Assembly: GCA_031127185.1 (NCBI GenBank)
Contig: JARIET010000031.1
Span: 1 to 15,896 of the forward strand
DNA: 15,896 nt
Direction of reading: 5' to 3'
From: Gemmatimonadota bacterium
GTDB taxonomy: Bacteria; Gemmatimonadota; Gemmatimonadetes; Gemmatimonadales; Gemmatimonadaceae
The position numbers and the translations under genes were made by a program. The notes under the pieces are model-generated. The model was not told where the DNA came from. It saw nothing but the letters and a program-made list of their open reading frames with translations, and did no database searches. The number at the start of each line of letters is the position of its first letter. The first letter of the stretch is position 1. Below are positions 3,182 through 13,762 of this stretch, piece after piece.

Positions 3182-3254
3182 GACCCGGTAGCTCAGTCGG
3201 TAGAGCAGCGGCCTTTTAAGCCGTAGGTCGTGGGTTCGATCCCCACCCGGGTCA
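3182..3254 (+). tRNA. tRNA-Lys (anticodon TTT)
   Basis: A full cloverleaf can be drawn. The 7-bp acceptor stem is GACCCGG with CCGGGTC (3182-3188 with 3247-3253). The D stem is GCTC/GAGC and the anticodon stem GCGGC/GCCGT has loop CTTTTAA, giving anticodon TTT (Lys). The T arm is GTGGG-TTCGATC-CCCAC and the discriminator is A. The length is 73 nt and CCA is not encoded. Confidence 0.97.
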
Positions 3255-9603: not shown

Positions 9604-10133
9604 CGGGCCCTGAAGCTCCCGCTGCGCCCGCCTGACTTCTCCACCAGGCGGATTGCGCCAATCCGCATCGTCTTGTCGGCACTTTTCACCATGTCATAGA
9701 CGGTCAGCAGGGCGACGCTGACTGCGGTGAGCGCTTCCATTTCGACGCCGGTGGGCGCGGTAGTCGCGACGGTGGCTTCGACACGCACCGACGCCGGCCG
9801 CCGAACGAGTTTCAGCGTGAGGTCCACATGCGATAGCGCGAGCGCATGACAGAGCGGGATCAACTCTGCGGTGCGCTTGGCTGCCTGGATCCCTGCAAGC
9901 TTCGCTACGCCGAGCACGTCACCCTTCTTGGCGGCATTGCGTCGAACGAGGTTCCAGGCCTCGCCGGACATGCGGATTTCTCCGGCGGCGCGGGCCCGCC
10001 GCTCCGTTGCTGGTTTGGCGCCCACATCAACCATGCGAGCGGTGCCGCGCGCGCCAACGTGGCTGAGCGTAGTTTTTGGCCGCTTTGATGGTGACCGCAG
10101 CGATCTGACGGGTTTGGGCTTTCGTGCGGCCAT
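9600..10133 (-). CDS. moaC: Cyclic pyranopterin monophosphate synthase MoaC
   Basis: Second step of molybdenum cofactor synthesis: MoaC turns the MoaA product (3',8-cyclo-GTP) into cyclic pyranopterin monophosphate in the cytosol. The 177-aa chain has a basic N-terminal extension of about 20 residues and then the full family signature. It shows L-S-H-V-G-x2-G-x-A-x-M-V-D-V, I-P-L-C-H-A-L-A-L-S-H-V with the active-site His, and G-V-E-M-E-A-L-T-A-V-S-V-A-L-L-T-V-Y-D-M-V-K with the acidic and Lys catalytic residues. ATG 10133 shares a base with the holB stop (TGATG), so translation is coupled to holB. No other moa gene is in the window. The pairing with holB is not a functional link known to me. 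Its TAA overlaps the convergent transglycosylase TAG. Confidence 0.96.
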   Translation of the reverse strand: MAARKPKPVRSLRSPSKRPKTTLSHVGARGTARMVDVGAKPATERRARAAGEIRMSGEAWNLVRRNAAKKGDVLGVAKLAGIQAAKRTAELIPLCHALALSHVDLTLKLVRRPASVRVEATVATTAPTGVEMEALTAVSVALLTVYDMVKSADKTMRIGAIRLVEKSGGRSGSFRAR

Positions 10134-11200
10134 CAGAGCGTATCCGCCAGCTTCGCGAGGAGGGCGTGGGTCACGAGTTGCGGCACGGCGTTGCGATCTG
10201 CGTCGCGCTTGGCCTGCTCGACGTGGACCATGGCGCGCGCGCAATTGGCGGCCATTCGTGCATCGCCGTTGTCGGCAGCATCGCGCGCGCGCCGGTGCAG
10301 CAGGTCCGACAGCGCGTCCAGAGCATCGGCGAAGGGCCCGCGCGACTTGGCGCTGCCTTGCACGTAGGCCACACGGTACAGGCGGTCGTGGTCGCGGGTG
10401 ACGGCATCCAGCATGGCGGTCGCCCGCTGCACTGCCGCGGCGCGAGCGTCGGCGTCACCGAGCGACCCCGGAGCCCCGTGCATGGCGCGGACCAGATCGG
10501 GAATCGAGCGATCCTTGCGGAGCGCTTCGGTGGCCGGTAACGCCAGGAATTCGCGCACTTCGGCTTCGCTGAGCGCGCGCACACGCATGGCGACCACACG
10601 CGAGCGGATCGTCGGCAGCAACGCGCCGGGCTCGCTCGATGTCAAGATGATAGTCGTGTCGCTGGGTGGTTCCTCGAGGAGCTTGAGGAACGCGTTCGCC
10701 GACTCGGCGCTCGCCGCCTGCGAGACCATGCGCTCGGCGTCGCCAACCACGATGACTTTTCGCCGGGCCATCGCCGGAAGAAGGACCGCGCGCTGCACGA
10801 CGGCCTTAGAGACGGCGAGAAAGATCCCCGCCGACCCATCCGGGCGGGGATAGATGCCGCCATCGGCCAGTCGTTCCGCAGTCGCCTCGGCGTAGTACTC
10901 GCGCACCTGGTCCACGTCGGGGTCCGATGGCTCGTTCTTGCCTTTGATGCGCGGGAATATCCAGAACAGATCCGGATGCACGCCGTCCACGGCGTACTTG
11001 CACTGCGGACACGCCCCGCACGGTCCGTCTGCGGTGGGACTGTCACAGAGCAGCCGCTGGCCCAGCCAAAGCCCGAGGCGTTGCTTGCCGATGCCCGCCG
11101 GGCCGGTGAAGAGGATGCTTGCGGCGAGCGTCCCCCGCACGACCTGCTCGTTGAGGCGTGCGCGAAGTGCGGTGTGTCCGATAAGCGGAGTGAGCGGCAC
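10133..11200 (-). CDS. holB: DNA polymerase III delta' subunit
   Basis: Clamp-loader delta' ATPase-fold subunit, 355 aa, which helps load the beta clamp during replication. The start is PLTPLIGHTALRARL, followed by Walker A G33-P-A-G-I-G-K39. Four cysteines form a zinc module (C52, C61, C64, C67). V-I-V-V-G-D-A-E-R-M and S-A-N-A-F-L-K-L-L-E-E-P-P follow, then the sensor region I-I-L-T-S-S-E-P-G-A-L-L-P-T-I-R-S-R. This is the expected delta'/tau order, and the lack of a long tail separates it from DnaX. Unlike many delta' subunits it keeps an apparently intact Walker A. GTG 11200 is preferred to ATG 11227: the family core begins there, and TATCTT (11212-11207) ends 6 nt before it, implying a leaderless mRNA. 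It is followed by moaC through a TGATG overlap. Confidence 0.92.
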   Translation of the reverse strand: MPLTPLIGHTALRARLNEQVVRGTLAASILFTGPAGIGKQRLGLWLGQRLLCDSPTADGPCGACPQCKYAVDGVHPDLFWIFPRIKGKNEPSDPDVDQVREYYAEATAERLADGGIYPRPDGSAGIFLAVSKAVVQRAVLLPAMARRKVIVVGDAERMVSQAASAESANAFLKLLEEPPSDTTIILTSSEPGALLPTIRSRVVAMRVRALSEAEVREFLALPATEALRKDRSIPDLVRAMHGAPGSLGDADARAAAVQRATAMLDAVTRDHDRLYRVAYVQGSAKSRGPFADALDALSDLLHRRARDAADNGDARMAANCARAMVHVEQAKRDADRNAVPQLVTHALLAKLADTL

Positions 11201-11205
11201 GGCGG

Positions 11206-11212
11206 TAAGATA
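11206..11212. promoter_or_regulatory. Symmetric -10 element shared by divergent holB and P1 peptidase
   Basis: TAAGATA reads as TAAGAT on the plus strand (11206-11211) and TATCTT on the minus strand (11212-11207). ATG 11219 lies 7 nt beyond it one way and GTG 11200 lies 6 nt beyond it the other way. Both transcripts would therefore start at or near their initiation codons. No clear -35 was found on either side. Confidence 0.5.
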
Positions 11213-11218
11213 GTGCCC

Positions 11219-12379
11219 ATGGCACACTCTCGGCTCCGGCGCGCCGTGAACGTCTCGGTCGCGCTTTCATTTGCAGCTGCGGCCAATCTCCTACCAGGCA
11301 GCGCGTGGGCGCAGGCCCGCCCGCGCGCCCGCGAACTGGGCATTGCGCCCGGCGTCTTCACGCCCGGCGCGAACAACGCCATCACGGACGTTGTGGGCGT
11401 CAAGGTGGGCCAGGCCACCGTCAACGAAGCTGATCGCGTACGCACGGGTATCACGGCGATTCTGCCGCACAGCGGCAATGCCTACCTCTCTCGCGTCCCC
11501 GCTGCGCTGCACGTAGGGAACGCCTTTGGCAAGCTGGTCGGCGCCACGCAGCTGCGGGAGTTGGGCGAACTGGAGACCCCGATTCTGCTGACCTGTACGC
11601 TGTGCGTCTGGAAAGCGGCTGATGCGATGGCCGAGTGGATGCTCGCGCAGCCGGGCATGGAGCGCGTGCGTTCGATCAATCCGGTCGTGGGCGAAACAAA
11701 CGACGGCGGGTTGAACGACATTCGTTCGCGGCCGATCACCGCGGCCGACGTGAAACGTGCGCTCGAGTCAGCGACGGACGGGCCAGTGGAGGAGGGAAGC
11801 GTCGGCGCCGGCCGCGGCACTGTGGCATTCGGCTGGAAAGGCGGCATCGGTACGTCGTCGCGGAAGCTTCCGACATCGCTTGGTGGTCACACGGTTGGCG
11901 TGATTGTGCAGTCCAACTACGGCGGTGTGTTGCAGATGGACGGCGTGCCGGTGGGGAAGGAGATGAACCAGTACGCGTACCGGGGCGCTGCCGGCACCGA
12001 GCGCGGCGACGGGTCGGTGATGGTGGTGGTTGCGACGGACGCTCCGCTCTCGGATCGCAATCTGGAGCGTCTGGCCGCGCGCGCGATGCTGGGGGTTGGC
12101 CGCACCGGGGCGAGCGCGTCGAATGGCTCAGGCGACTATGTGCTCGCCTTCTCGACAGCTGCCGAGGTACGCCGGGCTTGGGACGCGCGTCGACTCACGA
12201 CGACGGAACTCGCGAACGAGGAATCGTCAGCGCTTTTTCAAGCCGTGATCGAAGCGACGGAGGAGGCAGTGTATAACTCCATCCTCAAGGCAACGACCGT
12301 CAGCGCTGCGGGACGGACTGTGGACGCGATCAATATTGATCGGCTCAAGGAAATACTGGTGCGGTACAGACCCAAATAG
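11219..12379 (+). CDS. Secreted P1-family (S58/DmpA-like) aminopeptidase
   Basis: Self-processing N-terminal-nucleophile peptidase of the DmpA/BapA family (L-aminopeptidase/D-esterase), 386 aa. A signal peptide covers residues 1-31 and ends in A-W-A before Gln, so it acts outside the cytosol. The mature start (ELGIAPGVFTPGANNAITDVVGVKVGQ) is typical. Further marks are PVVGETNDGGLNDI, E-E-G-S-V-G-A-G-R-G-T, GWKGGIGTSSR and V-I-V-Q-S-N-Y-G-G. Gly265-Ser266 in G-D-G-S-V-M-V-V-V-A-T-D-A-P-L is the expected self-cleavage site, with Ser266 becoming the nucleophile. Known members release N-terminal residues or beta-amino acids; the substrate here is unknown. The start at ATG 11219 fits both the signal peptide and the shared -10 element. 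The 10-bp G-rich repeats begin directly after the stop. Confidence 0.93.
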   Translation: MAHSRLRRAVNVSVALSFAAAANLLPGSAWAQARPRARELGIAPGVFTPGANNAITDVVGVKVGQATVNEADRVRTGITAILPHSGNAYLSRVPAALHVGNAFGKLVGATQLRELGELETPILLTCTLCVWKAADAMAEWMLAQPGMERVRSINPVVGETNDGGLNDIRSRPITAADVKRALESATDGPVEEGSVGAGRGTVAFGWKGGIGTSSRKLPTSLGGHTVGVIVQSNYGGVLQMDGVPVGKEMNQYAYRGAAGTERGDGSVMVVVATDAPLSDRNLERLAARAMLGVGRTGASASNGSGDYVLAFSTAAEVRRAWDARRLTTTELANEESSALFQAVIEATEEAVYNSILKATTVSAAGRTVDAINIDRLKEILVRYRPK

Positions 12380-13672: not shown

Positions 13673-13690
13673 GCTGATGTCCGTGTTGAG

Positions 13691-13762
13691 CTCCCGAGGA
13701 GGGATTTGAACCCCCGACCCGGCGATTAACAGTCGCCTGCTCTACCCCTGAGCTACTCGGGA
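13691..13762 (-). tRNA. tRNA-Asn (anticodon GTT)
   Basis: Read on the minus strand, the acceptor stem is TCCCGAG with CTCGGGA (7 bp), the D stem is GCTC/GAGC, and the anticodon stem GGCGA/TCGCC has loop CTGTTAA, so the anticodon is GTT (Asn). The T arm is GGGGG-TTCAAAT-CCCTC with one G-T pair. Discriminator G is typical of tRNA-Asn. The length is 72 nt and CCA is not encoded. Confidence 0.97.

Follow-up and report, generated by a model that had tools for sequence, protein, structure and literature searches.

Bidirectional promoters with a symmetric, shared -10 element were reportedly described by Warman et al. in 2021. In the most common geometry 18 bp lie between the divergent starts, and -7T and -11A coincide reciprocally (available part of Middlemiss et al. 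2023, PMC10268837). Some of the published bidirectional promoters are located between divergent genes, and two mRNAs are made there. For example, in the acrA/acrR and soxS/soxR pairs of E. coli two divergent protein genes have one -10 element in common; according to the available part of Warman et al. 2026 (PMC12825309), the starts are 10-23 bp apart, -35 elements exist on both sides, and activators act at several of these promoters. A related system is represented by the leaderless genes of high-GC bacteria that are led by TANNNT approximately 12 nt before the start codon, as an alternative to Shine-Dalgarno (SD)-led genes (Zheng et al. 2011, PMC3160421; for Deinococcus-Thermus, PMC12340547). 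The available parts of these two papers treat one direction: the word "divergent" is absent from that of PMC3160421, and "divergent", "bidirectional" and "symmetr" are absent from that of PMC12340547. In open-licence PubMed Central, searched by title and abstract start, we found no bacterial study in which bidirectional promoters give leaderless mRNAs, and none on leaderless genes or start-site mapping in Gemmatimonas or Gemmatimonadetes.

The junction described here resembles the first group in having one -10-like element for both strands, reciprocal -11A and -7T, a predicted distance of 18 bp, and a position between two divergent genes for which two mRNAs are predicted. It probably differs from the published bidirectional promoters in that its predicted starts are on or next to the start codons, and it has no visible -35 element and no -18T; in contrast to the E. 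coli pairs, neither a -35 element nor an activator was seen. With the second group it shares TANNNT and its distance to the start codon, but it is predicted to be used in two directions. Thus, the kind of promoter is known, and the new combination would be that both products are predicted to be leaderless.

Layout of the junction

The analysed DNA (the window) is a stretch of 15,896 nt from a Gemmatimonadota bacterium; the assembly to which it belongs comprises 2.2 Mb in 219 contigs and is 61% complete. One -10-like element, TAAGATA at 11206-11212, lies between the start codons of holB and of an S58/P1 peptidase gene. On the plus strand the junction reads CAC (11198-11200, the GTG of holB on the minus strand), GGCGG, TAAGATA, GTGCCC and ATG (11219-11221). 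The features are:

10133..11200, minus strand: holB, DNA polymerase III delta' subunit, 355 aa from GTG (PF13177; homologues align from residue 1)
11200, minus strand: predicted transcription start of holB, with +1 on the G of its GTG according to the -7T/-11A rule (PMC10268837, available part)
11201..11218, no strand: 18-nt spacer between the start codons, GGCGG-TAAGATA-GTGCCC
11206..11212, no strand: putative shared symmetric -10 element TAAGATA (T1 A2 ... T6 A7), from the sequence and from TANNNTA in 19 of 19 shared-layout genomes
11206..11211, plus strand: TAAGAT, predicted -10 hexamer of the S58 peptidase gene, 7 nt ahead of ATG
11207..11212, minus strand: TATCTT, predicted -10 hexamer of holB, 6 nt ahead of GTG, a spacing equal to the leaderless-type peak in genome G003
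11218 by the -7T/-11A rule, or 11219 if a purine is preferred, plus strand: predicted peptidase transcription start, from the geometry
11219..12379, plus strand: S58/P1 peptidase, 386 aa (Pfam PF03576), with an N-terminus that looks like a signal peptide by eye
3182..3254, plus strand: tRNA-Lys (ttt)
13690..13762, minus strand: tRNA-Asn (gtt)

The starts at 11200 and 11219, the gap of 18 nt and the distances of 6 and 7 nt had all been read correctly in an earlier note on this DNA. HolB matches Pfam PF13177 with an E value of 9.4e-33 and 113.9 bits against a cut-off of 27 (scanned from a GTG at 11227), while its top NCBIfam match, TIGR00678, stays below the curated cut-off (139.9 against 180.6). 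The peptidase, which we take to be DmpA-like, matches PF03576 with an E value of 8.5e-109 (364.2 bits, cut-off 23.9), and an NCBIfam profile search with it gave no match. Each of the two hexamers agrees with TATAAT at four of six positions, A2 and T6 included. The heptamer TAAGATA occurs six times in the assembly (four and two by strand), its reversed control 20 times.

We propose that the housekeeping (sigma-70-like) holoenzyme would use TAAGATA as the -10 element of a bidirectional promoter, the plus reading being TAAGAT and the minus reading TATCTT. The A (-11) and the T (-7) flipped by sigma are base-paired partners on opposite strands, so that one melted bubble could serve either orientation. 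The 18-bp -7T/-11A rule and the position of TAAGATA together predict +1 sites at 11200 (minus) and 11218 (plus), and therefore both start codons are at or next to predicted start sites. The predicted spacing is 18-19 bp, and bidirectional promoters are recognised by divergent starts 7-25 bp apart on opposite strands. A shift by one base from 11218 to the A at 11219 would not exceed the ordinary variation in the choice of start sites. Transcription of holB would begin with the G of its GTG (11200), and that of the peptidase gene at 11218/11219, either just ahead of its ATG or on the A of this codon. With no leader, or almost none, both mRNAs would be translated without a Shine-Dalgarno sequence. 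From the sequence we infer that polymerase initiates at the junction on either strand and that the two mRNAs lack leaders. To a conserved symmetric -10 element common to two divergent genes with predicted leaderless mRNAs we assign a probability of roughly 0.75, and comparison of the sequences leaves the single shared symmetric -10 element itself a well supported prediction. Should transcription of both genes begin at the start codons, the junction would be about the smallest possible control region for two divergent genes, with the promoter, the start sites and the translation starts of both genes within 24 bp.

Conservation of the junction in relatives

The pattern CAY-N5-TAAGATA-N6-ATG gave 17 matches in 15 of 179 family genomes, compared to 6 matches of a reversed control pattern. 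Fourteen of them are holB/peptidase junctions, six in the genus of the window (g1, window included) and eight in the genus g47; at one of these, L042, the contig ends just inside the peptidase frame. Of the other three, two belong to a junction of tilS with a small-protein gene, and the one in G072 is apparently a chance match. With TAAAATA instead, the layout was found three times, always at the holB/peptidase junction of g47 genomes (control 0), TAAGATA with a 17-nt spacer is present in G164 (L068), and the holB/peptidase junction of L190 contains TAAGTTA. Thus, TANNNTA is present in 19 of 19 shared-layout genomes (14 with TAAGATA and an 18-nt spacer, one with TAAGATA and a 17-nt spacer, three with TAAAATA, one with TAAGTTA), which are members of two genera plus one genome from elsewhere. 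In all 19 the A at -11 of one reading pairs with the T at -7 of the other, as in bidirectional promoters. A peptidase match was found beside holB in 18 of the 19; in the remaining one, L070, the contig ends 33 nt into the frame. The HolB proteins of the 18 relatives are 47-65% identical to that of the window, and the named relatives retrieved with holB are for the most part MAGs of Gemmatimonadaceae or Gemmatimonadetes (among the matches listed, 80 loci), from which the genome of the window can be assigned to the Gemmatimonadaceae. In genomes from other families, matches of the TAAGATA layout do not exceed chance: there are three, none of them a holB/peptidase junction, against seven in the control, in the 254 such genomes among 395 searched (G037-G060 and G203-G432). 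Comparison with related genomes had been put forward in the earlier note as a check, and it turned out in favour of the layout: the element and both distances are kept in 19 distinct genomes, one of them having the 17-nt spacer.

On the holB tree cut to these 19 genomes (length 5.85), the parsimony changes in the seven columns of the element are 0, 0, 0, 1, 1, 0 and 0, two in total, so that T1, A2, A3, T6 and A7 are without change. By comparison, the 11 remaining spacer columns underwent 57 changes in total, and third codon positions of holB 5.2 each on average. This suggests that selection can maintain a symmetric -10 element across long divergence, and that such an element need not be a transient by-product.

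Of the 18 genomes of g1, six have the shared layout, seven have the peptidase beside holB with separate elements (L008, L009, L011, L012, L019, L021 and L332, the last from G008), three have another gene beside holB (L006, L007, L010), and two gave no holB match (G012, G017). In the seven genomes with separate elements the genes are further apart, and each gene has its own -10-like element: L008, L009, L012, L019, L021 and L332 have AAGATA towards holB and TATCTT ahead of the peptidase at a distance of 6 nt, while in L011 TATTTT precedes the peptidase. The junction in L008 and L009 contains inverted copies, GGCGAAG...AAGATA...TATCTTCGCC, that is, two outward-facing -10-like elements with similar flanks. 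In g47, with 17 genomes, the shared layout is present in 12 (L070 included), another neighbour in three (G167, G169, G173), and no holB match was obtained in two (G161, G162); all 11 g47 genomes with a peptidase match beside holB, and in addition L070, have the shared element. This natural series of a shared element, two separate elements and no peptidase could be useful for studying the evolution of leaderless starts and bidirectional promoters.

For the full tree, 102 of 125 holB loci were kept and 101 were used; 20 were dropped as repeats of a counted genome and three because of a start off the contig or a late match. The tree of 101 proteins, made by a quick method with SH-aLRT as the only support and with a long-branch warning that concerned L013 among others, implies four changes of the shared state. 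The six g1 genomes with the shared layout are split off from all others by one branch (support 99), and all 19 fall within a set of 35 rows (support 97). A single early origin followed by losses would fit this tree, on which gain and loss are not separable. One holB/peptidase locus in a bin titled Candidatus Kuenenia stuttgartiensis (L243) groups among Gemmatimonadaceae in the tree, and therefore this bin is probably mislabelled or mixed.

Promoter and leaderless signals

In G003, a genome of the same genus (1.2 Mb, 952 called genes), TANNNT was found 6 nt before the start codon of 39 genes, at 7 nt in 15 and at 5 nt in 13, while the mean count at distances of 8-24 nt was 4.0. In G163 of g47 (0.4 Mb, 322 called genes) it was found at 6 nt in 12 genes and at 7 nt in eight. 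For these counts we used our own, crude gene caller, which missed the peptidase beside one holB (L289). When every ATG or GTG in 400 kb was considered there was no clear peak; the signal emerged once genes were called. TANNNT 6 nt ahead of the start codon is a leaderless-type signature in this lineage, seen across the genome and similar to that known from other high-GC bacteria (PMC3160421, PMC12340547). At the junction of the window the first T of TANNNT is located 12 nt before the holB start and 13 nt before the peptidase start, in line with the approximately 12 nt typical of leaderless genes.

The 18-nt spacer of the window contains no SD-like tetramer for either gene. In all 19 shared-layout genomes such a tetramer is absent closer than 25 nt to holB, and in 18 of them, window included, closer than 17 nt to the peptidase; the exception is L073, with AAGG 7 nt ahead of the peptidase ATG. 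A -35 element was not recognisable on either side, the mean best matches in the 19 loci being 2.8 and 2.3 of six compared to 2.5 at random positions. At the junction a scan with the sigma-70 consensus found no promoter, and a terminator scan gave nothing above chance. The -18T, which is usual but not defining, is also absent in the window (C/G at 11200/11201; C at 11218, which is G on the minus strand).

Is the element used in both directions?

Only the plus hexamer requires T1, and only the minus hexamer requires A7; still, neither base varies among the 19 genomes. T1 is a T in 18 of 18 loci with a peptidase match and start codons 17-18 nt apart, as against four of 22 other loci with TANNNT at holB, one of the four being L070, which has the shared layout but is cut by the contig end. 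The Fisher value of this contrast, 7e-8, ignores kinship and is not to be taken at face value; since the 19 genomes are related and the tree contains only four changes of state, the contrast rests on few independent events. In this comparison L008 and L009 were scored as close because of an in-frame ATG 15 nt away; elsewhere we count them as loci with separate elements, because another in-frame ATG at 33 nt has its own TATCTT 6 nt ahead.

One alternative, which we consider unlikely, is that TAAGATA is the -10 element of holB only, that the peptidase promoter lies inside holB or elsewhere, and that the short gap is incidental. Indeed, TANNNT is present 3-7 nt before holB in 40 of 102 distinct family loci, with or without the peptidase beside it, and many of the remaining loci have CATATT there (by eye). 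Some codirectional genes, too, have an A after TATCTT, and at tilS this A is kept where the start of the partner is 43-76 nt away. What speaks against this alternative is that in the 19 shared-layout genomes no conserved TANNNT other than the element exists within 150 nt of either gene, on the plus strand in particular. Upstream of the peptidase the element is the only conserved TANNNT in 19 of 19 (the next most common place, in 4 of 19, overlaps its end), and upstream of holB in 18 of 19, L070 being mis-offset since its contig ends. Further, T1 is invariant although the matching seventh base A is rare in leaderless-type -10 elements at large (A in 6 and T in 31 of 54 in G003; A in 2 and T in 7 of 20 in G163), and the peptidase ATG is found at 18 nt from holB in 18 of 19 genomes (in L070 by sequence alone) and at 17 nt in one. 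These points argue for the shared element, as do the separate elements in those g1 genomes in which the two genes are further apart.

The very strong conservation within a short spacer could also be expected of a binding site for a regulator, or of another conserved DNA element that is not a -10. However, the flanks change freely, so that no longer palindrome exists, and for this reason we set the operator reading aside. Moreover, every variant (TAAAATA and TAAGTTA here, TAACATA and TAATGTA at tilS) retains TANNNTA, which is what the sigma rule requires, and the spacing fits leaderless-type promoters; a site of this type is quite improbable. The layout would be void if the start codons were misplaced and holB began upstream, for example at GTG 11227, with overlap of the two genes. 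In the window the holB frame is in fact open upstream, with a GTG at codon -9 before the stop at codon -23. The earlier note had named position 11227 as the alternative start; the position is right, and the codon there is GTG, not ATG. It had further pointed to a conserved upstream start as evidence against the layout, and we found none: an upstream in-frame start at one fixed place never occurs in more than two of the 19 genomes, nine have no such start before a stop or within 50 codons (L070 read to the contig end), and in L190 a stop is located at codon -4. Homologues align from the GTG/ATG, and we see very little chance that the starts are misplaced. The reading of one -10 element legible on both strands between two near-leaderless genes, as proposed in the earlier note, is thus supported by the sequence and by the relatives.

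Other junctions with a symmetric element

In the genus of the window TATCTTA-N5-RTG gave 31 matches compared to 15 for the reversed control: six at holB, ten at tilS and 15 at other places. Fourteen of these 15 head an open frame of more than 100 codons, and their neighbours are divergent in five cases and codirectional in six, with none called in three; this rules out symmetric TATCTTA as a mark of divergent pairs only. The 17 genes led by TATCTT and then C or G, among the matches listed, have a divergent neighbour in three cases, a codirectional one in ten and none in four. The more general pattern CAY-N5-TANNNTA-N6-ATG had 20 matches in the 18 genomes of the genus, eight of them TAAGATA, with 17 for the reversed control, and a general design of this kind is ruled out for the genus by the lack of excess.

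The exact layout was also found in G004 and G005 between tilS (PF01171) and a gene whose 61-aa product matches no Pfam family. The 17 g1 genomes that were read (of 18; the tilS of the window is cut) all have TANNNTA at a distance of 5 nt from the presumed start of tilS, in the forms TAAGATA, TAACATA or TAATGTA (middle bases AGA, ACA or ATG), and in all 17 the small gene was matched beside tilS (loci L034, L047 and L253-L269; L271 and L272 repeat genomes and were left out of the counts). The ATG of the small gene follows the element at 6 nt in two genomes and at 43-76 nt in seven; in the other eight the pattern placed none. Where the small gene is far away, either a leader would precede it in the plus transcript or tilS itself would make use of the seventh A, and these junctions therefore weaken T1 as proof of use in both directions.

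A near-miss exists in G003 (C1, 399946-401797; L067/L098), where an inositol-monophosphatase-like gene and trpS (names given by eye) diverge with 19 nt between the ATGs. One TAAGTTTA lies between them, with leaderless geometry for trpS and a leader of approximately 3 nt on the other side.

The start codon of holB follows the layout: it is GTG in 19 of 19 shared-layout genomes, with no change on the tree, and ATG in 10 of 10 genomes of the same genus that were read and do not have the shared layout. Polymerase binding is reportedly stabilised by a T at -18, and position -18 of the predicted peptidase promoter falls approximately on the G with which holB begins. One may speculate, as a doubtful proposal, that holB kept GTG because this codon sets peptidase transcription, and that 18-nt two-way leaderless junctions (holB/peptidase, tilS/small protein, and the near-miss of the monophosphatase-like gene and trpS) represent a recurrent wiring of gene pairs in the family. 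If this were true, the start codon of one gene would double as a promoter position of the other.

Possible coupling of the two genes

A replication gene would here be tied to a probable secreted peptidase by sequence alone, because, by the sigma rule, a change of A2 or T6 would hit both genes. At the level of transcription, mutual exclusion of polymerases at the junction, by which the earlier note linked the expression of the two genes, is a sterically sound argument, but the link is not supported in the form given there. In the available part of Warman et al. 2026 (PMC12825309), the basal activity of five tested E. coli bidirectional promoters was too low for competition, and exclusion was seen when activation of one direction was strong. 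Lacking a visible -35 element, the promoter predicted here would presumably be no stronger than these, and regulatory coupling of holB and the peptidase gene is most likely weak at basal activity.

At its other end holB meets moaC. The moaC frame as listed, with TTG 10244 as its start, has 112 nt in common with the end of holB (10133-10244 of the window). The real moaC start is probably further in than this TTG.
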